From the NCBI RefSeq assembly GCF_001425785.1, contig NZ_LMDI01000012.1:311566-375565 (forward strand): DNA of 64,000 nt. The letters are read 5' to 3'. Under the pieces are notes generated by a model. The model had not been told where the DNA came from, ran no database searches, and was given only the letters and a program-made list of their open reading frames with translations. The position numbers were made by a program, and so were the translations under genes. Of the stretch, positions 50,928 to 62,365 are shown piece after piece (within the stretch, counting starts at the first letter, position 1; every line of letters starts with the position of its first letter). This stretch comes from Rhizobacter sp. Root1221 (GTDB lineage Bacteria; Pseudomonadota; Gammaproteobacteria; Burkholderiales; Burkholderiaceae_C).

Positions 50928-51617
50928 ATGAGTCAAACCACCTACCGCATCGCCCCGAGCATCCTGTCCGCCGACTTCGCCCGCCTGGGCGACGAAGTGC
51001 GCCAGGTCATCGATTCGGGCGCCGACTGGATCCATTTCGACGTGATGGACAACCACTACGTCCCCAACCTGACCTTCGGTCCGATGATCTGCGAGGCGTT
51101 GCGCAAACACGCGGTCACCGCAACGGGTGCCCGGGTGCCCATCGACGTGCACCTGATGGTGCAGCCGGTAGACGCGCTGGCCCAGGCCTTCTGCAAGGCC
51201 GGCGCCGACCTGGTGAGTTTCCACCCCGATGCCAGCACCCACGTGGACCGCACCCTGCAGCTGATCAAGGCCGAAGGTTGCCAGGCTGGCCTCGTGTTCA
51301 ACCCGGCCACGCCGCTCGACGTGCTCGAGTGGGTGATCGACAAGGTCGACCTCGTGCTGATCATGAGCGTCAACCCGGGTTTCGGCGGGCAGAGTTTCAT
51401 CCCGTCGGCACTGAAGAAGATCGAACAGGCGCGCCGCCTCATCGACGCGAGCGGGCGCGACATCCGCCTCGAGGTGGACGGAGGCATCAAGGCCTCGAAC
51501 ATCCGCGAGGTGGCCGCCGCCGGCGCCGACACGTTCGTGGCCGGCAGCGCCATCTTCACGCAGAAGGACTACAAGGCCGCCATCGACGCGATGCGCGCCG
51601 AACTGGCGCGTGCCTGA
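50928..51617 (+). CDS. rpe: Ribulose-phosphate 3-epimerase
   Basis: A 229-residue TIM-barrel enzyme interconverting ribulose 5-phosphate and xylulose 5-phosphate. Motifs: [36 protein letters not shown] with the metal-binding His and Asp, VDVHLMVQP-like [27 protein letters not shown] and [12 protein letters not shown]. In related genomes gph follows directly; here a 10-kb segment intervenes. Confidence 0.95.
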
Positions 51618-51708: not shown

Positions 51709-51818
51709 CGCCGACACGACCCCGGCCCTTGTGTCCCCTTGTCCTTCCCCTGCCCTGAGGATGCCGGCGCGCGCCATGGCCCGTACCGTGCGTGGACCGA
51801 CCACCACAGGGAGCTCCC

Positions 51819-52898
51819 ATGCGCGTACCTACCCGGCTCGTATCCATCGCGGCGGCGGCCGTGTTCGCCCTCGCGAGCCTGCCCTTGCAGGCCGCCCCGC
51901 AGTACACCTTGTTCGACCTCGGGGCGCTCGGCAGCGGCAGCTCGACCGCCGCGCAGATCAACGATGCCGGCCAGGTGATCGGTTCTTTCGGCGCCAACGC
52001 GTTCGTGTACACGCCGGGCCTGGGCGTCACCGACTTCGCCACGCTCGCAGGCCAGCCCGCCGGCGCCACCAGCAGTGTGTACGGCATCAACGGCCTTGGC
52101 CAGGTCGTGGGGTCGGTGGGGGCCGGGTCGTCGGTCGTGTATCGCCCCGGTATCGGCACCGAGTACCTGGCCGACGGCCTCGGTGTCCGCCGCATCAACG
52201 ACGCGGGCCAGTACATCGGCGAAGGCTACGACGGGTCGGCCGGGTTCGGCTATCGGTACACGCCGGGCACTGGTATCGAACTGCTGCCGGGGTTGTACTC
52301 GCTGGTCGCCGACATCAACAACCATGGGCAGGTCGCCGGCGTCGCCGCCTACACCGACGACAGCATCGACCACGCCGCGCGGCTCGACGCGGATGGCGTG
52401 CAGCTCCTGGGCGATCTCGGTGGGGGGTTCAGCAAGTCGACCGCGATCAACAACGGCGGCGATGTCGTTGGCTACGCGGGCGTGAGCAGCGACTTGGTGC
52501 ACGCCTTCCGGTACACCGACGCGGGCGGCATCGTGGACCTCGACCCGTCGGGCCTCTTTCACAGCATGGCCGAAGCCATCAACGACCAGGGGTTGGTCGG
52601 TGGGGCGTTCTGGACGACGAGTGACGGCACGGAAAAGCGTGCCTTCATCGCCGGCGCGACGTCGGGCCTGATCGACCTCAACACCCTGCTCGACCCGTCG
52701 ACCGGGGCCGGTTGGACGCTGCTGGAGGTGAGCGACATCAACAACGCGGGCCAGATCGTCGGCACCGGCCTGTTCGGCGGTGCGGAGCGTGCTTTCGTGC
52801 TGAGCGCCGTGGCCGCGCCGGTGCCGGAGCCCGCCGCGTGGCTGCTGGCGCTGGTGGCCTGGCCGCTGTTGCGGCGGGGGGCGCGCCAGGCGTGCTGA
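51819..52898 (+). CDS. HAF-repeat protein with PEP-CTERM sorting signal
   Basis: A 359-residue exported protein. Signal peptide ending near LPLQA-A, then repeated HAF-type units (YTLFDLGALGSGSSTAAQINDAGQVIGSF, INGLGQVVGSV, INDAGQYIGEG, INNHGQVAGVA, INDQGLVGGAF, INNAGQIVGTG) about 45 residues apart. The C-terminus is a PEP-CTERM signal: PVPEPAAWLLALVAWPLL followed by basic residues, which directs the protein to exosortase for surface display. Role unknown, possibly in extracellular polymer. AGGGAG precedes the ATG. Confidence 0.85.
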   Translation: MRVPTRLVSIAAAAVFALASLPLQAAPQYTLFDLGALGSGSSTAAQINDAGQVIGSFGANAFVYTPGLGVTDFATLAGQPAGATSSVYGINGLGQVVGSVGAGSSVVYRPGIGTEYLADGLGVRRINDAGQYIGEGYDGSAGFGYRYTPGTGIELLPGLYSLVADINNHGQVAGVAAYTDDSIDHAARLDADGVQLLGDLGGGFSKSTAINNGGDVVGYAGVSSDLVHAFRYTDAGGIVDLDPSGLFHSMAEAINDQGLVGGAFWTTSDGTEKRAFIAGATSGLIDLNTLLDPSTGAGWTLLEVSDINNAGQIVGTGLFGGAERAFVLSAVAAPVPEPAAWLLALVAWPLLRRGARQAC

Positions 52899-52944: not shown

Positions 52945-54072
52945 CTACATGGTGCGGCCGCCCGGCCCCTGGCGAGTCATGTCGAACAGGTCCTTGGCCT
53001 CCCGCGGCTGGCATCGCCAGTACTGCGGCGGCGCTGCCACCCGTGCGCCGAGTTCGGCGGCGGCGTGCCACGGCCAGCGCGGGTCGTAGAGCATCGCCCG
53101 TGCGAGGCCCACCGCGTCGGCCTCGCCGTCGGCGATCACCGCTTCGGCATGGGCCGCGCTGGTGATGAGCCCCACGGCGATCGTGGGCAGGCCCACCTCG
53201 GCCTTCACGCGGCGCGCGTGTGGCACCTGGTAGCCGGGCGCGAGCGGGATCGCCTGCGCCGTGGACACCCCGCCGCTCGACACATGGATGGCAGCGCAAC
53301 CTCGCGCCTTCAATGCGTGAGACAGCGCCACGGTGCCGTCGAGGTCCCAGCCACCCTCCACCCAATCGGTGGCCGACAGGCGGATCCACACCGGGCGGCC
53401 GGCGGGGAACGCCTCGCGCACCGCCTCGAATACCTCCAGCGGGAAGCGCATGCGGTTCTCGAGCGGTCCACCGTAGGCATCGGTGCGGTGGTTGGCCAGC
53501 GGCGACAGGAACTGGTGCAGCAGGTAGCCGTGCGCCGCATGCAGCTCGATGCCGTCAAACCCGAGCCGCGCGGCCCGCCGCGCCGCCCGGGCAAAGTCGT
53601 CGCGCACACGGCGCAAGCCGTCCGCGTCGAGGGCGTGCGGCGGGGTGTCGGTGGCTGCGTGGGGCACGGCCGACGGGCCCAGGGTTTGCCAGCCCGCCGG
53701 TTCGTGCGGGTGGACTTGCGAGCCACCTTCCCACGGCACCTGCGTGGAGCCTTTGCGGCCGGCGTGCGAGAGCTGGATGGCCAGCGGCATCGCAGCGTGC
53801 CGGCGCACGGAGGCCAGCACGAGCGCGAGCGCGGTTTCGTTCGCGTCGTTCCAGAGTCCCAGGTCGGCCGCGGAGATGCGGCCTTCCGGCGACACGGCCG
53901 TGGCCTCGAGCACCATCAGGCCCGCGCCCGAGAGCGCCAGGCTCCCGAGGTGGATCAGGTGCCAGTCGGTGGCGTTGCCATCGACCGCGGCGTACTGGCA
54001 CATCGGGGCGATGACGATGCGGTTGGGCAGCGTGAGCGACCCCAGCGGCAGGGGGGAAAACAGGCGGGACAC
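52945..54072 (-). CDS. NADH:flavin oxidoreductase (old yellow enzyme, YqjM-like)
   Basis: A 375-residue FMN enzyme reducing activated C=C bonds. Motifs: LTLPNRIVIAPMCQYAA, with the Cys of YqjM-like enzymes, IQLSHAGRKGS, FDGIELHAAHGYLLHQFLSP, NHRTDAYGGPLENRMRFPLEV, and AVGLARAMLYDPRWPWHAA. The GTG at 54072 was chosen because GGAG lies 7 nt upstream and it gives the usual length; a GTG at 54180 would add 36 residues and overlap the LysR stop. Same strand as and directly after the LysR regulator gene. Confidence 0.87.
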   Translation of the reverse strand: MSRLFSPLPLGSLTLPNRIVIAPMCQYAAVDGNATDWHLIHLGSLALSGAGLMVLEATAVSPEGRISAADLGLWNDANETALALVLASVRRHAAMPLAIQLSHAGRKGSTQVPWEGGSQVHPHEPAGWQTLGPSAVPHAATDTPPHALDADGLRRVRDDFARAARRAARLGFDGIELHAAHGYLLHQFLSPLANHRTDAYGGPLENRMRFPLEVFEAVREAFPAGRPVWIRLSATDWVEGGWDLDGTVALSHALKARGCAAIHVSSGGVSTAQAIPLAPGYQVPHARRVKAEVGLPTIAVGLITSAAHAEAVIADGEADAVGLARAMLYDPRWPWHAAAELGARVAAPPQYWRCQPREAKDLFDMTRQGPGGRTM

Positions 54073-54176
54073 GAGCGGGCTCCGGATGGCGGGATGCACC
54101 GCACTGTGCCGTGTTTCCGCCCCGCGCGGGCGGTGGGGGATTTTGGTGAGCACCTCGCGAAGCCGTTCGAGGTTCT

Positions 54177-55142
54177 TCACGTGCGCCTCGAACCCGCAGC
54201 CCTCGGTGTCGTGGGTGGCGCCGCCCTCGCCTTCGATGGGGAGCGTGCCGGCCGCTTGACGTCCTCGAACAGGTCATACAGCTGTTGGGCGGCGGTCGAC
54301 AATGAACGCCCGCGGCGCCGAATCAACCCCACCTTGCGTGTGACCACGGGGTCGACAAGAGGAAGGCTGACGAGCAACGGGTGATCAGGACCCGGCATGG
54401 CCATGGACGGGACGGCGGCGACGCCGAGGCCTGCTTCAACCAGACCGATCATCGTCGTCACATGCTGCGCTTCGTAGATCGCCTGCGGTCTGCCGCTCAC
54501 GCCGGCCAGCGCCTGATCCAGCAGGACACGGTTGCCCGAAGCGCGCCCAACCGAAATGAAGTCGTACTCCGCAAGTTGTGCCCATGTCACGCGGCGCAGC
54601 TTCGCCATCGGATGATCGCGCCGGCAGGCCGCAACAAAGCGCTCTTCCACCAGCGGCTTGAACTCCAGTTCGCCCTCCTGGGATCCGATGAAGTTGAGCC
54701 CGAAGTCGGCCTCGCCGCGGCCCACCGCCGCCAGCACCTCGTTCGCGCCCGCATCCAGCACCTTGACCCGCACCTTCGGGCATAGCACGTGATACCGGCG
54801 TATCACCTCTGACAGGTAGTAGTAGACGGTCGACGGGACGCATGCGACCGTCACTTCGCCCATGTGCGTCGCGGCCACGCCGCGGATGCCCAGCAGCGTG
54901 GCGTCGAGCTCGTCCAGCAGCTCTCGCACCTTGCGCTCGAAGTCACGGCCCACTGCCGTGAGCGTCACCCGCCGGGTGGTGCGTTCAAGAAGCCTCACCC
55001 CCAGTGCCTGCTCGAGCTTGTCGATCCGCCGGCTGAAGGCCGGCTGCGACAGATGAACGGATTCCGCCGCCTTGCGAAAGCTGCTCAGTTCCGCCACGGC
55101 GCGAAAGGCGAGCAAGTCGTTGAGGTCGAAGTTGATGGCCAT
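54177..55142 (-). CDS. LysR-family transcriptional regulator
   Basis: A 321-residue regulator. The N-terminal winged helix is clear (LNDLLAFRAVAELSSFRKAAESVHLSQPAFSRRIDKLEQALGVRLLER is the expected arrangement over residues 7-55), followed by a linker helix and the two-lobed effector domain (EVTVACVPSTVYYYLSEVI, ADFGLNFIGSQEGELEF). Divergently transcribed from the tautomerase-like gene across an 89-bp gap, the classic layout for a LysR activator of the adjacent catabolic operon. Confidence 0.88.
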   Translation of the reverse strand: MAINFDLNDLLAFRAVAELSSFRKAAESVHLSQPAFSRRIDKLEQALGVRLLERTTRRVTLTAVGRDFERKVRELLDELDATLLGIRGVAATHMGEVTVACVPSTVYYYLSEVIRRYHVLCPKVRVKVLDAGANEVLAAVGRGEADFGLNFIGSQEGELEFKPLVEERFVAACRRDHPMAKLRRVTWAQLAEYDFISVGRASGNRVLLDQALAGVSGRPQAIYEAQHVTTMIGLVEAGLGVAAVPSMAMPGPDHPLLVSLPLVDPVVTRKVGLIRRRGRSLSTAAQQLYDLFEDVKRPARSPSKARAAPPTTPRAAGSRRT

Positions 55143-55231
55143 GGTGAACCCCTCGATTGATGTTCAAAGCGGATCAGTTGATCTTAAAGATGCAATTCAC
55201 TTTTGCAATGCCGTCGACCACTATTCAGTCC

Positions 55232-56329
55232 ATGAACCAAGTCATCCCCTGCGTCCTCATGCGTGCCGGCACGTCGAGAGGCCCCTTCTTCCTCCGCGAG
55301 TGGTTGCCTGCCGACGACGTGGCCCGCGACGAGGCATTGATCGGCGCCATCGGTGCATCCGACCTGTTGCAGGTGGATGGCGTCGGCGGCGGAAGCACCC
55401 TGACGAGCAAGGTCGCGATCGTCTCGAAGTCGAAAGAGCCGGGCTGCGATGTGGACTACCTGTTCGCGCAGGTCGGTGTGGGCCAGCGGTCCGTCGACAC
55501 CCGCCCCAACTGCGGCAACATGCTGTCCGGGGTGGCCCCGTTCGCCATCGAGCAAGGCCTCGTCCGTGCGCAAGATGGCGAGACCGTGGTGCGCGTGTTC
55601 AACGTCAACACACGGTCGCGCATCGACGTCACGGTGCAGACCCCTGGCGGGCGTGTGACGTATGAAGGCGAGACGGGCATCGACGGCGTGGCGGGTACCG
55701 CCGCCCCCGTCCGGCTCAACTTCCTCGATGCCTGGGGCGCTGTCACCGGATCGCTCTTTCCCACGGGCCGGCGCATCGACACCTTCGGTGGCCTGGCCGT
55801 GACCTGCATCGATGCGGCGATGCCGCTCGTGATCCTGCGGGCCAGCGAGCTTGGCCTGACCGGCCGTGAGACGCCGGCCGTGCTGGACGCCGACCGCGCC
55901 TTGCTCGATCGCATCGAATCCATCCGGCTGGCCGCCGGCGAGGCGATGGGCATGGGCGACGTGTCAGGCAGCGTCGTGCCCAAGCCGGTGATCGCCAGCG
56001 AGGGTGACGATGCCGACAGCGTGACGTCGCGCTACTTCACGCCGCGCCGCTGTCATGCGTCACATGCGGTGACCGGCGCCATCGGCGTCGCGACCGCCTT
56101 CGCCCTGCCGGGAACGGTCATCAGCGGTGCCTCGCACCGCGGCGGCACGCGGGGCATCTCCGTGCTGCATCCCCAAGGACGCATCGACGTCGAAGTCACG
56201 GTCGAGGGCACCGGCGACGGCGCCAGCGTCCAACGTGCCGCACTCGTGAGAACTGCGCGCAAGATCCTGCAGGGCGACCTGCATATCCCGTCCTATGTCT
56301 ATTCCAGACACGTTGAAGGAGACCGCCCC
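55232..56329 (+). CDS. PrpF-family isomerase (aconitate isomerase / 4-oxalomesaconate tautomerase-like), without its own stop codon
   Basis: About 366 residues of the PrpF fold (two diaminopimelate-epimerase-like halves): IPCVLMRAGTSRGPFFL, QVDGVGGGSTLTSKVAIVS, RPNCGNMLSGVAPFAIE and the second-half SRYFTPRRCHASHAVTGAIGVATAFALPG. Family members shift double bonds in unsaturated tricarboxylates, for example cis- to trans-aconitate, or 2-methylaconitate or oxalomesaconate. The start follows the family pattern MNQV-IPC; ATGs at 55208 and 55190 are alternatives. No stop codon ends this domain: the frame continues through IPSYVYSRHVEGDRP directly into the receptor protein. Confidence 0.8.
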
Positions 56330-57292
56330 ATGAAACGCCTCATTGCACCCGCAGTCGCTGCCGCCGTCCTCGCCGCCTCCGCACCGCTGGCGATGGCCTT
56401 TCCCGACAAGACCATCACCATCGTGGTTCCTACCGCGGCCGGGGGTGGCAACGACGCCATGGCCCGGACCATCGCGCAGCGCCTCGGCGCCCTGCTCGGC
56501 CAGACGGTCATCGTCGACAACCGCGCGGGGGCCAACGGCGCCATCGCCTGCGAGTACGTGGCGCGGGCCACGCCCGATGGCCACACGCTGGTGTTCGGGT
56601 ACATCGGCACGCACGCGATGAACCCCGCCCTGCAGAAGCTCCGCTATGACCCGGTAGCCGACTTCGCCCCGATCGGGCTGGTGGGCTACTCGCCGACCCT
56701 GATGGTGGCCAACAACACGGTCCCGGTGAAGGATGTGAAGGACCTGGTGGCCCAGCTCAAGGCCAAGCCCGACAAGTACACCTATGCCTCCGCCGGCAAC
56801 GGCACCGCGCCGCACTATGCCGCCGAACTGTTCAAGCTGAGCACCGGTGTCGTGATGCTCGGAGCTCCGTACAAGGGCGCCGCTCCCGCCATCAGCGACA
56901 CGATCGGCGGCCAGACCCAGTTCATGTTCCCGAGCCTGTTCACGGCACTTCCCCACGTCAAGTCCGGCAAGCTGCGCGCTTTTGCCATCGCCGGGCCGGC
57001 ACGGTCGCCGCTGTTGCCTGACGTGCCCACGCTCAAGGAGGCCGGCGTGAGCGGCGTGGAGGTTCAGCAGTGGTACGGCTTTTTCGCTCCCGCGAAGACG
57101 CCGAAGGCCGTGGTCGATCAACTGAACAAGGCGTTGAACCAGGTCCTTGCCGAAAAGGACATCGTCAAGCGGATGGAGGATCACGGCGCCACGGTCGAGA
57201 GCAGCACGCCGGAGCAGTTCGGGGCGTTGGTCAAGGGCGAGATCGTGAAATGGAAGGCCGTCGTCCAGCAGGCCAAGCTGACCGTCGAGTAA
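56330..57292 (+). CDS. Bug-family (TctC) tripartite tricarboxylate receptor
   Basis: A 320-residue periplasmic receptor with its own signal peptide (MKRLIAPAVAAAVLAASAPL, cleavage near AMA-F). Bug signature: FPDKTITIVVPTAAGGGNDAMARTIA, LLGQTVIVDNRAGANGAIACEYVARATPDGHTL and the YAPVADF-like YDPVADFAPIG. It has AAGGAG at 56315-56320 ahead of its ATG, so independent initiation is likely although the upstream frame is open. Bug proteins bind di- and tricarboxylates; no TctA/TctB membrane genes are adjacent. Confidence 0.87.
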   Translation: MKRLIAPAVAAAVLAASAPLAMAFPDKTITIVVPTAAGGGNDAMARTIAQRLGALLGQTVIVDNRAGANGAIACEYVARATPDGHTLVFGYIGTHAMNPALQKLRYDPVADFAPIGLVGYSPTLMVANNTVPVKDVKDLVAQLKAKPDKYTYASAGNGTAPHYAAELFKLSTGVVMLGAPYKGAAPAISDTIGGQTQFMFPSLFTALPHVKSGKLRAFAIAGPARSPLLPDVPTLKEAGVSGVEVQQWYGFFAPAKTPKAVVDQLNKALNQVLAEKDIVKRMEDHGATVESSTPEQFGALVKGEIVKWKAVVQQAKLTVE

Positions 57293-57305
57293 GGGAGGCC
57301 GAGCC

Positions 57306-58166
57306 ATGAACGCGTCCCTAGACGACCTGCAGGCCTGGGTTGGCCGCAGCGAATCCACGCACGACGAGATCAGCCCGACGCCCGTGAAGGCCCTCGATGC
57401 CACGCTGGACCACCCGCCGCGTGCCATCGAACGCGGCACCCCCTTGCACCCGCTCTGGCACTGGCTGTACTTCCTGCCATTGCACCGGCAGAGCGACATC
57501 GGCGCCGATGGCCACGCGCGTCGCGGCGGGTTCCTGCCTCCCGTGCCCTTGCCGCGTCGCATGTGGGCGGGCAGCCAGTTCGAGTTCAATGCACCGGTGC
57601 GTGTGGGTGATGTGGTGGAACGCCGGTCCACCATCACCGATGTCTCCGTGAAGGACGGCCGCACCGGGCAGCTGGTGTTCGTGAAGGTGCGGCACGAGCT
57701 TCGATGCAATGGCGCGGCCGCGCCTGCCATCGTCGAGTTCCACGACATCGTGTACCGCGAGGCCAAGCGGCCCGGCGACGTCGAACCACCCCCGCGGCTC
57801 GCCGAGACCGATGCGGCCTGGCAGCGGGTGGTGGTTCCCGACGACGTGTTGCTGTTCCGCTATTCCGCGCTCACGTTCAACGGCCACCGCATTCACTACG
57901 ACCGGCAGTACGTCACCCAGGTGGAGGGCTACCCCGGCCTGATCGTCCACGGCCCGCTGATCGCGACGCTGTTGATGGACCTGGTCCGCAGGAACGCACC
58001 TCAGGCCGACATCGCGACGTTCCGCTTCAAGGCGGTGCGGCCCACCTTCGACCTGAATCCGTTCCAGCTCAACGGCCAGGTCGGCGGCGATGGCAAGAGC
58101 GTTCGGCTGTGGGCCCAGGACCATGAGGGCTGGCTCACGATGGATGCAGTGGCGACGCTGCGCTGA
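57306..58166 (+). CDS. FAS1-like/MaoC-type acyl-CoA hydratase
   Basis: A 286-residue double hot-dog protein of the HTD2 / mesaconyl-C4-CoA hydratase type. The first half shows LHPLWHWLYFLPLHRQSDIGADGHARRG and MWAGSQFEFNAPVRVGDVVER; the second half LLFRYSALTFNGHRIHYDRQYVT, where the hydratase-motif Asn and His lie, and GLIVHGPLIATLLMD. GGGAGG precedes the ATG. Beside a CoA transferase and a CitE-like lyase it most likely hydrates itaconyl-CoA or mesaconyl-CoA to citramalyl-CoA. Confidence 0.82.
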   Translation: MNASLDDLQAWVGRSESTHDEISPTPVKALDATLDHPPRAIERGTPLHPLWHWLYFLPLHRQSDIGADGHARRGGFLPPVPLPRRMWAGSQFEFNAPVRVGDVVERRSTITDVSVKDGRTGQLVFVKVRHELRCNGAAAPAIVEFHDIVYREAKRPGDVEPPPRLAETDAAWQRVVVPDDVLLFRYSALTFNGHRIHYDRQYVTQVEGYPGLIVHGPLIATLLMDLVRRNAPQADIATFRFKAVRPTFDLNPFQLNGQVGGDGKSVRLWAQDHEGWLTMDAVATLR

Positions 58167-58183
58167 AATCAAGGGAACTCACC

Positions 58184-59365
58184 ATGCAACCCCTCAAGGG
58201 CATCACCGTGGTCACGCTGGAGCACGCCATCGCGGCCCCGTTCGCCACGCGCCAGCTCGCCGACCTCGGTGCCCGTGTCATCAAGATCGAGCGACCCGGC
58301 GTGGGCGATTTCGCCCGAGGCTACGACAACCGTGTGCGCGGGCTGGCTTCGCACTTCGTGTGGACCAACCGCTCGAAGGAAAGTCTCACCCTCGACGTCA
58401 AGCATGCCGATGCGGCCCAGGTGCTCGAACGCCTGGTCCTCGAGAAAGCCGACGTCGTGGTGCAGAACCTGGCCCCCGGCGCCGCTGCGCGACTGGGCTT
58501 GGGGTACGAAGCCCTGGCCGCCAGGAAGCCATCGATCATCGTGTGCGACATCTCGGGCTACGGTGCGGACGGACCGTACCGCGACAAGAAGGCCTACGAC
58601 CTGCTGATCCAGAGCGAAGCGGGTTTCGTGTCCGTCACCGGAACGGCCGACGAGCCCTGCAAGGCCGGCCCGTCGATCGCCGACATCGCCGCAGGCATGT
58701 ACGCCTACACCAACATCCTGGCGGCGCTGCTGCAGCGCGCGCAGACAGGACGCGGCCAGCACATCGACATCTCGATGCTGGAGGCCCTGGCCGAATGGAC
58801 CAGCTATCCGCTGTACTACGCCTTCGGCGGTGCGCCGCCGCCGCCGCGCACCGGGGCGGCGCACGCCACCATCTACCCGTACGGCCCGTTTCCCTCCGGC
58901 GCCGATGGCGGCAGTGTCATGCTGGGCCTGCAGAACGAACGGGAGTGGGTCAACTTCTGCGACAAGGTGCTTTGCCGTCCGGAACTCGCGAAAGATCCTC
59001 GCTTCGCAGGAAACGCCAGGCGCGTCGCGGAGCGGGGCGTGCTGCGGGACATCATCGTCGACGCGTTCTCGACGTTGAGCGCGGCCCAGGTGGTGGAGCG
59101 GCTGGATGCGGCCCAGATCGCCAACGCAAGGGTGAACACGATGCACGACGTCTGGGCGCATCCGCAGTTGCAGGCCCGCAGCCGATGGCGAGACGTGGGA
59201 ACGCCCGCCGGCGCCGTGCCGGCGATGCTGCCGCCGGGCACGTGGAACGAGGGACCCCGCATGGACCCAGTGCCCTCGCTCGGCCAGCACACGGATGCGA
59301 TCCTGGCTGAACTCGGGCTCGACACCGGTACGGTCAATCGCCTGCGGGCGGCGGAGGCGATCTGA
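58184..59365 (+). CDS. CaiB/BaiF family CoA transferase
   Basis: A 393-residue family III CoA transferase. Starts LKGITVVTLEHAIAAPFATRQLADLGARVIKIERP, the conserved first strand and helix; the catalytic Asp is expected in GPSIADIAAGMYAYTNILAAL near residue 168, and GRGQHIDISMLEAL follows. Such enzymes move CoA between carboxylic acids, often from succinyl-CoA. In this cluster itaconate or mesaconate is the likely acceptor. AAGGGA precedes the ATG; the stop overlaps the next start. Confidence 0.9.
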   Translation: MQPLKGITVVTLEHAIAAPFATRQLADLGARVIKIERPGVGDFARGYDNRVRGLASHFVWTNRSKESLTLDVKHADAAQVLERLVLEKADVVVQNLAPGAAARLGLGYEALAARKPSIIVCDISGYGADGPYRDKKAYDLLIQSEAGFVSVTGTADEPCKAGPSIADIAAGMYAYTNILAALLQRAQTGRGQHIDISMLEALAEWTSYPLYYAFGGAPPPPRTGAAHATIYPYGPFPSGADGGSVMLGLQNEREWVNFCDKVLCRPELAKDPRFAGNARRVAERGVLRDIIVDAFSTLSAAQVVERLDAAQIANARVNTMHDVWAHPQLQARSRWRDVGTPAGAVPAMLPPGTWNEGPRMDPVPSLGQHTDAILAELGLDTGTVNRLRAAEAI

Positions 59366-60198
59366 TGCCGGCCTCGCTCACGGATGCACGCACCTACCTC
59401 TTCGTGCCGGGGAACCGCCCCGAACGGTTCGCGAAAGCACTGGACAGCGGTGCCGATGCCGTCGTGTTCGACCTGGAGGATGCCGTGGCGCCAGACGACA
59501 AGGGCGCCGCACGTGACGCCATCGCGCGATGGTGTGGTGGGGCGGACAAGCGGAACCGGGAACGTGTGCTCATCCGCATCAACGAGGCGGACTCGCGGCA
59601 TTTCCCGGACGATCTTCGCTTGCTGCGAGAGGCCTGCATCGGGCAGTTGATGCTGGCGAAGGCGGAAACGCCGGATCATGTCCGGTGCGTGTTGTCGGGT
59701 GTCCCGGAGGCAGCCGTTCTCGCATTGGTCGAGACGGCGCGGGGCGTTGCCCAAGTGCAGACCCTGGCCCGCACCCCGGGTGTCGTTCGACTCGCGTTCG
59801 GCACGCTGGACTACGCGCTGGATCTCGACCTGGACATCGCCGACAGCGCGGATGGCCTCGCGCATGCGGCAGGAGCGCTCGCGCTCGCCTCTCGCGTGGC
59901 GGATCTTCCGCCGCCGGTGGCCGGCGTCACCCCGCAGCTCGACGAGCAGCCCCGGCTGCTGGCGGACTGGGCGTGGGCGCGCCGGTTCGGTTTCGGCGCG
60001 AAGCTGTGCATCCACCCGAGGCAGATCGCACCGCTTCACGGCGCCATGGCACCGGACCCGCAGGCGATCGCCTGGGCCGGGCGTGTGCTCGCGGCAGAAA
60101 CCGCCTCGCCAGGGGCCGCGCAACTCGACGGCCGAATGATCGACCGTCCCGTCGTCCTGCTCGCGCAACGCACGTTGCAGCGCGCTGCCCGGAACTGA
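59365..60198 (+). CDS. CitE-family CoA-ester lyase (citramalyl-CoA lyase-like)
   Basis: A 277-residue HpcH/CitE-fold lyase. Motifs: YLFVPGNRPERFAKALDSGADAVVFDLEDAV, RVLIRINEADSRHF, LVETARGVAQVQTLAR and KLCIHPRQIAPLH. The metal-binding Glu and Asp (VETARG ... FGTLDYALDLDL) are present. Proteins of this type split (S)- or (R)-citramalyl-CoA or malyl-CoA. It begins within the stop of the CoA transferase gene (TGATG). In context it would yield acetyl-CoA and pyruvate from citramalyl-CoA. Confidence 0.87.
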   Translation: MPASLTDARTYLFVPGNRPERFAKALDSGADAVVFDLEDAVAPDDKGAARDAIARWCGGADKRNRERVLIRINEADSRHFPDDLRLLREACIGQLMLAKAETPDHVRCVLSGVPEAAVLALVETARGVAQVQTLARTPGVVRLAFGTLDYALDLDLDIADSADGLAHAAGALALASRVADLPPPVAGVTPQLDEQPRLLADWAWARRFGFGAKLCIHPRQIAPLHGAMAPDPQAIAWAGRVLAAETASPGAAQLDGRMIDRPVVLLAQRTLQRAARN

Positions 60199-60228
60199 TT
60201 CCGTCACCACCCTCCAGAGGAACCCATC

Positions 60229-61575
60229 ATGTCAGCCACCATCATCGACTCGGCCATCTTCCAGGGCATCTTCTCCAGCGATGAGATGCGTCACGTGTGG
60301 TCCGACGAGAACCGCACGAAGAAGTACCTCGACATCGAGTCCGCGCTGGCCAAGGTGCAGGGGCGCCTGCGCCTCATCCCCCAGGAAGCGGCCGACGAGA
60401 TCGTCAGCCACTGCCACCTCGACCAGATCGACATGGCGAAGCTGCGCCTGCAGACCGAACGCATCGGCTACCCGATCCTCGGGGTGGTGTCGCAACTCAA
60501 CGCGTTGTGCCGCGACAAGCTCGGTGAATACTGCCACTGGGGCGCCACGACCCAGGACATCACCGACACGGCCACCGTGTTGCAGATCCGCGAGGGTCTC
60601 GACATCGTCGACCGGGAGCTCGCTGCCATCTCCGCCGCGCTGGCCCGCCACGCGAAGGTGCACCGTGACACCCCGATGATCGGCCGCAGCAACCTGCAGC
60701 AGGCCATTCCGGTGACCTTCGGCTACAAGATGGCAGGATTGCTCTCTGCCATCGAGCGCCACCGCGAACGGCTGACGCAACTGCGTGAGCGGGTTCTCGT
60801 GGGCGAGTTCGCCGGGGCTGCCGGCACGTTGGCTTCGCTGGAGAGCGGGGCGATGGAGACGCAGGCGGGGCTGTGCGCCGAGCTCGGCTTGAAGCAGCCG
60901 GTGATCGCCTGGCACACGATCCGCGACAACATCGCGGAGGTGGGCACGTTCCTCGGCCTGGTGGGCGGCACGCTCGGCAAGCTCAGCATGGACGTGAAGC
61001 TCATGATGCAGACCGAAGTGGGCGAGGTCTACGAGCCGTTCGCCCATGGCCGCGGGTCCTCGAGCACCATGCCGCAGAAGCGCAACCCGATCTCCAGTTG
61101 CTACATCCACGCAGCCATCTCGGTCGTTCGCCAGCATGCGGCAGCGCTGATGGACGCGATGGTCGCCGACCACGAGCGTTCCACCGGCCCGTGGGAGATC
61201 GAATGGATCGTGCTTCCCGAGGCCTTCTGCCTCATGGCAGGCGCGCTGAAGCAATCCCGCTTCGTGCTCGAAGGCCTGGAGGTCGATGCCGAAGCGATGC
61301 GCCGCAACATCGACATGACCCAGGGGCTCGTGATGAGCGAGGCGGTGATGATGGGGCTGGGCCGCTACATCGGCCGCGAGTATGCGCACGACCTCGTGTA
61401 CGACATCTGCCGCGAGACGGTGAAGCAGCGCCGTCCGCTGCTCGACCTGCTCGCCGAGCATCCCGAGATCAGCCCGCACCTCGATCGTGCCGCGCTGGCC
61501 AAACTGTGCGACCCCGCCAACTACCTGGGTCAGTCAGGGGTGATGGTCGACCGGGTGCTGGCCACCCTGCGCTGA
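60229..61575 (+). CDS. Fumarase/adenylosuccinate lyase-superfamily enzyme (CMLE-like), possible trans-aconitate decarboxylase
   Basis: A 448-residue protein of the aspartase/fumarase superfamily, closest in pattern to 3-carboxy-cis,cis-muconate cycloisomerase: GEYCHWGATTQDITDTATVLQ, IGRSNLQQAIPVTFGYK, and the flexible loop signature GRGSSSTMPQKRNPISS near residue 276. GAGGAA precedes the ATG. No protocatechuate genes accompany it, so a muconate role is doubtful. The fungal trans-aconitate decarboxylase belongs to this same superfamily and is paired with a PrpF-type aconitate isomerase, exactly the pairing seen here. Confidence 0.85.
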   Translation: MSATIIDSAIFQGIFSSDEMRHVWSDENRTKKYLDIESALAKVQGRLRLIPQEAADEIVSHCHLDQIDMAKLRLQTERIGYPILGVVSQLNALCRDKLGEYCHWGATTQDITDTATVLQIREGLDIVDRELAAISAALARHAKVHRDTPMIGRSNLQQAIPVTFGYKMAGLLSAIERHRERLTQLRERVLVGEFAGAAGTLASLESGAMETQAGLCAELGLKQPVIAWHTIRDNIAEVGTFLGLVGGTLGKLSMDVKLMMQTEVGEVYEPFAHGRGSSSTMPQKRNPISSCYIHAAISVVRQHAAALMDAMVADHERSTGPWEIEWIVLPEAFCLMAGALKQSRFVLEGLEVDAEAMRRNIDMTQGLVMSEAVMMGLGRYIGREYAHDLVYDICRETVKQRRPLLDLLAEHPEISPHLDRAALAKLCDPANYLGQSGVMVDRVLATLR

Positions 61576-61693: not shown

Positions 61694-62365
61694 GTGAACG
61701 CCATTCAGTCCAACCAGCCCCGCTTCGCTGCCGCCATCGTCGACCTCGACGGCACGATGGTCGACACCCTCGGTGACTTCCAGGTGGCCCTCAACGCCTC
61801 GCTGGCCGACCTGGGGGCCGAGCGGGTCGACCGCACGTTCATCGAGCAGACGATCGGCAAGGGCTCCGAGCACCTGGTGCGCCAGACGCTGGCCGAGGTG
61901 GGCGCCCCGGCCGGCCGCTTCGATGAAGCGTTCGAGCGGTACCAGCACCATTACCAGCGCATCAACGGCAAGTACGCCAACGTGTATGACGGGGTGGTGG
62001 AAGGGCTCGTGCGCCTGCAGGCGAGCGGGCTCAAGCTCGCATGCCTGACGAACAAGCCGTTGGCGTTCGCCCGCACGTTGCTCGAACAGAAGGGCCTCGC
62101 CCCGTTTTTCCAGGTGTGTTTCGGCGGCGACAGCTTCGAACGCAAGAAGCCCGACCCGCTGCCGCTCCTGCGCACCTGCGACGCGCTGGGGGAGGCGCCG
62201 TCACGGGTGCTCGTGATCGGGGACTCGGTGAACGACGCGCTGGCCGCGCGTGCCGCGGGCTGCGAGGTGGTGCTGGTGCAGTACGGCTACAACCACGGCC
62301 AGCCGGTGGCCGATGTGGACTGCGACGGGGTGATCGACCGGCTGGACGCCGTGGCGATCGCCTGA
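61694..62365 (+). CDS. gph: Phosphoglycolate phosphatase
   Basis: A 223-residue HAD-family phosphatase removing phosphate from 2-phosphoglycolate. Motif I IVDLDGTMVDT with the nucleophile Asp is near residue 17, motif II CLTNKPL near residue 118, and motifs III-IV in KPDPLPLLRTCD and VIGDSVNDALAARAAG. The frame starts with GTG at 61694, since the next in-frame ATG falls inside motif I. Normally placed between rpe and trpE in this group, here separated from rpe by the accessory segment. Confidence 0.9.
   Translation: MNAIQSNQPRFAAAIVDLDGTMVDTLGDFQVALNASLADLGAERVDRTFIEQTIGKGSEHLVRQTLAEVGAPAGRFDEAFERYQHHYQRINGKYANVYDGVVEGLVRLQASGLKLACLTNKPLAFARTLLEQKGLAPFFQVCFGGDSFERKKPDPLPLLRTCDALGEAPSRVLVIGDSVNDALAARAAGCEVVLVQYGYNHGQPVADVDCDGVIDRLDAVAIA

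Follow-up and report, generated by a model that had tools for sequence, protein, structure and literature searches.

A candidate operon for the breakdown of aconitate through itaconate in Rhizobacter, headed by a fused isomerase-receptor gene

We describe here an operon of Rhizobacter sp. Root1221 that, as judged from sequence comparison, very probably breaks down aconitate via itaconate to pyruvate and acetyl-coenzyme A (acetyl-CoA). The operon lies in a stretch of 64,000 nucleotides (hereafter, the window) that corresponds to positions 311,566-375,565, forward strand, of contig NZ_LMDI01000012.1 in assembly GCF_001425785.1. An earlier note on this DNA had proposed that one operon, divergent from a LysR-type regulator, serves the catabolism of aconitate through itaconate. 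The divergent arrangement is borne out, the operon genes running on the plus strand from 55232 to 61575 (Table 1). The six protein types listed in the note are all encoded on the plus strand according to Pfam, but the PrpF-family isomerase and the Bug receptor, given there as separate genes, share one frame with no stop codon between them. The catabolic proposal gains support from the clade and the residue signature that the last enzyme shares with Tad1 of Ustilago maydis, from the kinship of the hydratase, and from the conserved linkage of the three itaconate-breakdown genes (the triad). The gene set, its conservation, the Tad1 clade and signature, the fusion, and an internal Shine-Dalgarno sequence with a start codon inside the fused frame can all be read directly in the DNA.

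We infer the following course of events, including the enzymatic steps in Rhizobacter, the substrate, the CoA donor, and both protein products of the first gene with their locations. External trans-aconitate would be bound by the Bug receptor and then taken up; the PrpF domain, with K60 and C94, would interconvert cis- and trans-aconitate, so that either isomer would be usable; and the last enzyme, a putative trans-aconitate decarboxylase (Tad), would decarboxylate trans-aconitate, yielding itaconate and CO2. Itaconyl-CoA would next be formed from itaconate and succinyl-CoA (the presumed donor) by a class III CoA transferase, the MaoC hydratase would convert itaconyl-CoA to (S)-citramalyl-CoA, and the CitE-type lyase would split citramalyl-CoA into acetyl-CoA and pyruvate. 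The LysR regulator would sense the substrate and act at a conserved box, and the first gene would yield two proteins, namely, an isomerase-receptor fusion and the receptor alone, the latter initiated inside the frame and carrying a signal peptide of its own.

In U. maydis, itaconate is made by Adi1 and Tad1, and purified Tad1 converts trans- but not cis-aconitate, as stated in the available part of PMC4720413. The five best solved relatives of the product of 60229-61575 are all Tad1 chains, with 535-543 bits (the best at 542.6), followed by the 'fumarate lyase' 3c8t (455 bits) and PcaB 1re5 (375 bits), so that Tad1 leads by 87 bits. Tad1 is 58% identical to the window lyase, 61% to the best member of its clade (L048), 53% to a Komagataeibacter protein, 43-50% to 11 rows of a sister group, and 32% to the PcaB-like protein of the same genome (L002); the sister group, in turn, is 50-55% identical to the window lyase. 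For the tree, rows were thinned at 86% identity, which left 45 of 151. Of these 45, 18 form a clade with support of 100/99, namely, Tad1, the Komagataeibacter protein, and a set of 16 that consists of the window lyase and its close relatives. The inner order of this clade is open; the neighbouring group holds 3c8t, and the PcaB-like rows are more distant. For both the tree and the signature, matches that cover less than 380 residues were excluded, as were L001 (a duplicate of the own copy) and L087 (which contains a stop). Phylogeny had been named in the earlier note as the test that might place this protein among the muconate cycloisomerases, and it placed it with Tad1 instead.

The residue signature agrees with the tree. 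S154-N155 and S277 of the window lyase correspond to S197-N198 and S320 of Tad1, which are features of the active region and presumably catalytic. The combination of Ser-Asn and the loop serine is present in all 97 distinct sequences of the Tad clade (108 rows) and absent from all 43 outsiders, that is, from 26 sister rows and from 17 other rows that were chosen by low identity, most of them without a check against the PcaB models. Specifically, the motif that follows the conserved arginine is Ser-Asn in 97/97 clade members and Thr-His in 26/26 sister rows, and among the 17 others it is Thr-Trp in 14, Thr-His in two and Thr-Leu in one; the first residue of the 'SS.MP' loop is Ser in 97/97, Ala in 26/26 and Gly in 17/17, respectively. 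The loop serine, S320 of Tad1, is Ala in the chain of 9h4h, and G123 and R360, which are changed in 9h4g, are kept in the window lyase as G80 and R317 (numbering by counting). The importance of these residues, and of I315, is suggested by their being changed in solved chains; a structure paper on the changed residues was not found in the open-access literature. Two observations weigh against a full equation of the two enzymes: the Tad1 branch is long and was flagged by the tree tool, and position I315 of Tad1, changed to Phe in 9h4e, is occupied by Ala in the window lyase, so the pocket is not identical to that of Tad1. On balance, trans-aconitate decarboxylation is the most plausible function of the protein, a prediction that draws on both the tree and the signature.

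It seems very unlikely that the lyase is instead a fumarate-releasing enzyme or a muconate cycloisomerase, with the itaconate-type genes serving another C5 acid. The best-scoring curated model for the window lyase is indeed PcaB, at 507.5 bits against a cut-off of 595 (350.4 against 355.75 in a second PcaB model); yet the PcaB-like protein of the same genome, for which PcaB is also the best model, scores 423.7 and 340.2 and misses the cut-offs by more, so these cut-offs do not discriminate here. A class II fumarase gene adjoins the sister-group gene in three (L092, L094, L095) of the five sister loci for which annotation was read, which would favor fumarate release. Against both versions of this alternative stand the different residues (Thr-His with loop Ala in the sister group; Thr-Trp, Thr-His or Thr-Leu with Gly in PcaB-like and other rows), the separation of the groups in the tree, and the lead of Tad1 among solved relatives. 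Identity as a muconate cycloisomerase was rejected, since the window lyase stands apart from the PcaB-like rows in the tree, carries the Ser-Asn and loop serine signature, and lacks the PcaB-type loop glycine along with Thr-Trp or Thr-Leu.

Two side observations concern the relatives of the lyase. Four members of the Thr-His sister group (L091, L092, L094 and L095) lie near GntR regulators and dicarboxylate or TRAP transporters, and with class II fumarase adjoining in three of these four, the sister group is perhaps a fumarate-releasing lyase. The Komagataeibacter member of the Tad clade (L090:7001-8422) is encoded on a plasmid among transposase and toxin-antitoxin genes, and no itaconate genes are listed for this plasmid, the gene table of which is incomplete.

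The activities needed for itaconate breakdown, which the earlier note had seen represented in the operon, do appear to be present, as judged from an 8khg-like hydratase, a class III CoA transferase and a CitE-type lyase. The only strong solved relatives of the hydratase are the itaconyl-CoA hydratases 8khg and 8huc, which are of the same length and have nearly the same score; 8khg matches with 245 bits and 124 identical residues of 256 aligned (48%), and the next match has an E-value of 0.16. The best solved relatives of the CitE-type lyase are the acyl-CoA lyases 9nzb and 8khl, and its best curated model is RipC/Ccl (NF038242) of itaconate degradation. We take 8khg and 8khl to be Pseudomonas aeruginosa proteins. 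The membership of the CoA transferase in the class III family is clear from the Pfam score (Table 1). What weighs against the assignment of these two enzymes is their scores in the specific models: the lyase reaches 135 bits in NF038242, with a cut-off of 375, and the CoA transferase stays below the equivalog cut-offs for succinate-glutarate (257 of 750) and mesaconate (200 of 700).

The same genome contains a second cluster of this kind (contig 5, L191:2901-10423), which comprises genes for Bug, aldehyde dehydrogenase, MaoC hydratase, acyl-CoA dehydrogenase, CaiB, another Bug and CitE, and in which no Tad relative was found. Its hydratase, CoA transferase and lyase are, respectively, 62%, 72% and 45% identical to those of the operon, and it perhaps serves methylsuccinate or a related C5 acid. 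Since this cluster combines the triad with an acyl-CoA dehydrogenase in the absence of Tad, the triad looks like a reusable module that, in the operon, would be fed by Tad.

Gene neighborhoods were counted for the best 80 of 320 relatives, one genome per species, a sample that leans to close kin. In 68 of these loci, the DNA upstream of the Tad-like gene extends for 3.7 kb or more; 63 of the 68 have MaoC, 59 CaiB and 49 CitE, with all three found together in 48 and none in four (L011, L028, L030 and L083). MaoC or CaiB lies just upstream of Tad in 64 of the 68. The operon is thus not a chance neighborhood, because the triad genes recur upstream of Tad. Of the 53 loci whose flanks are long, 41 have a PrpF relative, 28 have Bug and 47 have LysR. 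Not all genes are equally constant, a point against the proposed pathway: no PrpF relative is found nearby at 12 of the 53 well-flanked loci, even at an E-value of 0.001, and in 19 of the 68 loci a search just upstream found no CitE, so that neither PrpF nor CitE can be strictly required.

These counts bear on the possibility that the operon serves external itaconate, mesaconate or citramalate, with Tad and PrpF as side branches. The triad alone suffices for itaconate, and DctA lies beside some copies of the cluster. On the other side are the constant position of MaoC or CaiB next to Tad, the Tad-less triad cluster already present in the same genome, and loci L011 and L028, which keep LysR, the PrpF-Bug fusion and Tad where the triad is absent. 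We consider this explanation highly improbable, and aconitate remains the substrate that we favor.

As for uptake, no transporter permease was detected among the operon proteins scanned with Pfam, the Bug receptor being present instead. DctA is found at loci on Azospirillum, Bradyrhizobium and Variovorax plasmids, and L075 carries TctC and TctA of a tripartite tricarboxylate transporter; such transporters, additional to the receptor or in its place, are as expected for a di- or tricarboxylate substrate. The Bradyrhizobium locus holds DctA, hydratase, CoA transferase, lyase and Tad, with no PrpF relative at an E-value of 0.001 within 19 kb, which would fit uptake of trans-aconitate itself. At some loci a porin gene is present as well: L016:6066-7136 (PF13609) lies between Bug and the hydratase, and two porin genes recognized by eye, L050:6056-7123 and L028:8663-9988, separate the fusion from the hydratase or Tad gene.

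The PrpF domain keeps K60 and C94 in all 24 aligned fusions. These residues were matched by eye to K73 and C107 of SoPrpF via motifs in the primers of PMC5690661; according to the accessible part of that paper, SoPrpF shows aconitate isomerase activity, and variants of K73 and C107 fail to support growth on propionate. In a Foldseek search with the model of the window fusion, the first domain matches the putative isomerase 6otv and LigU. A point against aconitate as the substrate is the score of the PrpF part in the 4-oxalomesaconate tautomerase model NF033377, 483 bits against a cut-off of 440, and because of this label the assignment as an aconitate isomerase rests on context and on the known activities of the family. 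Such a label is compatible with aconitate, given that for U. maydis Adi1, too, oxalomesaconate tautomerase is the closest relative listed (PMC4720413, in the part available). We thus see in this domain a member of the family with catalytic Lys and Cys kept and, by context, a putative aconitate isomerase.

Could the PrpF domain be a 4-oxalomesaconate tautomerase of gallate breakdown that stands beside Tad by chance? The NF033377 score is what such an enzyme would give, and a tannase-like gene adjoins the fusion on one Variovorax plasmid. We judge this distinctly unlikely, considering the listing of Adi1 and the fact that 19 of the 21 family genomes with the fusion also possess Tad. In that survey of 150 genomes of the family, a Tad-clade gene (at least 73% identity) was found in 23 and the fusion in 21 (Fisher p = 3e-18 for the co-occurrence, kinship ignored); Tad occurs without the fusion in G370, G387, G468 and G496, and the fusion without Tad in G426 and G445. 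This association also carries less weight than its p value suggests, being not independent of linkage and kinship. The 21 fusion genomes were counted by hand: 19 span the whole query, G472 crosses the junction and is cut by the contig end, and G483 consists of two rows in one open frame. The Tad clade is unevenly spread: among 369 genomes of the class (E-value 1e-80), a Tad-clade protein is found in the own genome only, two others having relatives of 35-36% identity, and in a sample of 398 from the phylum the top match, the own genome not counted, is 54% identical.

A further explanation would let PrpF send trans-aconitate to cis-aconitate for the tricarboxylic acid cycle, as TarA does in Bacillus, with Tad and the triad mainly relieving the toxicity of trans-aconitate or itaconate. 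TarA and TbrA are PrpF-superfamily aconitate isomerases, as described in the available part of PMC11495376, and K60 and C94 are kept here. Against it, the complete triad plus a dedicated uptake receptor would seem to exceed the needs of detoxification, and some loci keep Tad and triad genes without PrpF (the Bradyrhizobium locus; the 12 of 53 loci mentioned above). We consider this account unlikely and prefer flow through itaconate.

The most surprising part of the operon is its first gene, an architecture of PrpF and Bug that we have not found described; among the matches listed, no PrpF-Bug or PrpF-TctC fusion appears in the open-access literature by title or abstract start. In the fetched loci, 52 of the 55 adjacent PrpF/Bug pairs (duplicates included) are fused in frame, and the frames differ in the three unfused pairs (L176-L178). 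We therefore reject the idea that the fusion results from a sequencing error, because other genomes show the same open frame. After removal of duplicates, 43 distinct fused junctions remain, with linkers that vary widely in length and always comprise whole codons. A hydrophobic signal-like segment is present in 33 of the 43, preceded by x-G-D-(1 to 3)-M or V, and the DNA that encodes this motif reads GGAGA followed closely by ATG or GTG, that is, a Shine-Dalgarno sequence and a start codon. In the window, the signal-peptide-like segment of Bug sits inside the frame behind PrpF; in the L162 junction (same as L039) the true internal site is GAAGGAGAC ahead of ATG. The glycine codon at the internal site is GGA in 33/33 signal-bearing junctions as compared to 139/2856 (4.9%) in the same frames (p = 3e-41, computed for 32 of the 33; the value ignores kinship and is a guide only). 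The fusion in one open frame and the start codon within it are thus both kept, and the first gene would be a dual-product gene, yielding the full-length fusion and the receptor alone.

The other ten junctions (L025, L070, L071, L081, L096, L170-L173 and L175) show neither a clear signal segment nor the internal start motif. With both gone, the Bug domain in these members has no export signal and would be cytosolic. A second Bug gene is present in the fetched DNA for five of the ten (L025, L070, L071, L096 and L170), and in the first four of these it starts, by eye, with a signal-peptide-like stretch; at L081, no second Bug gene was found at an E-value of 1e-40 within 21 kb. The remaining four loci are short; the contig of one, G437 (L172), carries a Bug gene at a distance of about 7 kb. 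The closest solved relatives of the Bug part are 2dvz, 6hke, BugD and Bug27, and the second domain of the window fusion model matches 2dvz, Bug27 and BugD in Foldseek. The AlphaFold models of the fusions have a low-confidence linker and further weak stretches, the predicted local distance difference (pLDDT) and template modelling (pTM) scores being 73 and 0.51 for the window and 68.9 and 0.45 for the signal-less L081. Neither of the two models gives a confident arrangement of the fused domains, a point against the reading proposed here. It is an even bet, in our estimate, that one frame gives two proteins in two compartments, namely, an isomerase with a Bug domain and a periplasmic Bug alone, and that elsewhere an enzyme feeding the pathway from aconitate to itaconate has recruited the periplasmic receptor fold as a domain for capture or regulation in the cytosol. 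If this is true, the fused gene would be a testable case of one frame serving both cytosol and periplasm.

The 89-base region between the divergent genes carries the inverted repeat ATTGAT-N11-ATCAGT. Among 29 aligned divergent regions (including that of the window) with LysR and PrpF on the two sides, TTGAT-N11-ATCA is exact in 18, again including the window, and the 11 regions without it include all five Azospirillum loci. A TTG at 55157 as an upstream start of the fusion was rejected: it falls in this conserved intergenic stretch, and the ATG at 55232 aligns with the starts in many relatives.

The proposed pathway would be a new combination of known steps, for which the sequence support is strong. 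The U. maydis cluster likewise combines a PrpF-family aconitate isomerase with a Tad of the same clade; unlike the operon, it is fungal and makes and exports itaconate, whereas here genes for breakdown as CoA thioesters are present and a solute-binding domain is joined to the isomerase in one frame. The itaconate breakdown of P. aeruginosa and C. necator employs the same type of hydratase, CoA transferase and CitE-type lyase, but itaconate or methylsuccinate is the substrate there. In Bacillus velezensis, according to the available part of PMC11495376, TarA of the PrpF superfamily converts trans-aconitate to cis-aconitate, and TarB is the importer; the words itaconate, itaconic and decarboxylase are absent from the paper. 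The tarRAB system thus resembles the operon in pairing a regulator with a PrpF-superfamily aconitate isomerase for the use of trans-aconitate, and differs in that it has an importer where the operon has a Bug receptor. The Bug/TctC receptors BugD, Bug27 and MatC share sequence family and fold with the Bug part described here, which differs in being fused behind an isomerase, with an internal start, and in lacking a signal-like segment in 10 of the 43 distinct junctions. Neither a bacterial trans-aconitate decarboxylase nor a bacterial route from trans-aconitate to itaconate was found in the open-access literature by title or abstract start, among the matches listed.

Maize and sugarcane contain trans-aconitate; in sugarcane and in sweet sorghum, the chief organic acid with six carbons is aconitic acid (available parts of PMC13188880 and PMC8871043). 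In the papers considered here, the use of trans-aconitate by bacteria proceeds by isomerization to cis-aconitate, to which the operon would add a second route. It would also give a function to Tad-clade proteins for which plasmid records at present use the names 'adenylosuccinate lyase family' or PcaB, and would provide bacterial Tad enzymes for itaconate production.

Table 1. Features of the operon and its regulator in the window (functions as predicted)
Feature	Position	Strand	Basis and remarks
LysR-type regulator	54177-55142	-	PF00126 + PF03466; divergent from the operon; probable substrate sensor
LysR-box-like inverted repeat	55156-55178		in the divergent intergenic region; from the sequence; putative role
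PrpF-Bug fusion	55232-57292	+	one frame of 686 codons; PrpF-family isomerase 1-~355, linker, signal-peptide-like segment ~367-390, Bug/TctC solute-binding domain
PrpF part	55232-56329	+	PF04303, 353 bits
Internal Shine-Dalgarno GAAGGAGA + ATG for the Bug part	56315-56332	+	within the fused frame
Bug/TctC receptor as putative internally initiated product, 320 aa	56330-57292	+	PF03401, 220 bits; own signal-like N-terminus
FAS1/MaoC-type hydratase, 286 aa	57306-58166	+	PF13452; probable itaconyl-CoA hydratase
Class III (CaiB/BaiF) CoA transferase, 393 aa	58184-59365	+	PF02515, 352 bits; probable succinyl-CoA:itaconate CoA transferase
CitE-type lyase, 277 aa	59365-60198	+	PF03328; probable citramalyl-CoA lyase
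Fumarase/adenylosuccinate lyase-superfamily lyase, 448 aa	60229-61575	+	PF00206 + PF10397; putative trans-aconitate decarboxylase (Tad)

The successive frames on the plus strand are separated by 13 bases and 17 bases, share one base, and are then separated by 30 bases. The operon belongs to a block of about 10 kb, which is flanked by a ribulose-phosphate 3-epimerase gene (50928-51617; TIGR01163, above cut-off) and a phosphoglycolate-phosphatase-like gene (61694-62365; TIGR01449, just above cut-off). These two genes are, presumably, usual neighbors in such bacteria, and the block between them may be an insertion. The same block holds, at 51792-52898, a gene for a HAF-repeat protein (TIGR02913) with a tail that looks PEP-CTERM-like by eye and, beside it on the minus strand (52945-54180), a gene for an oxidoreductase of the old-yellow-enzyme type (PF00724).

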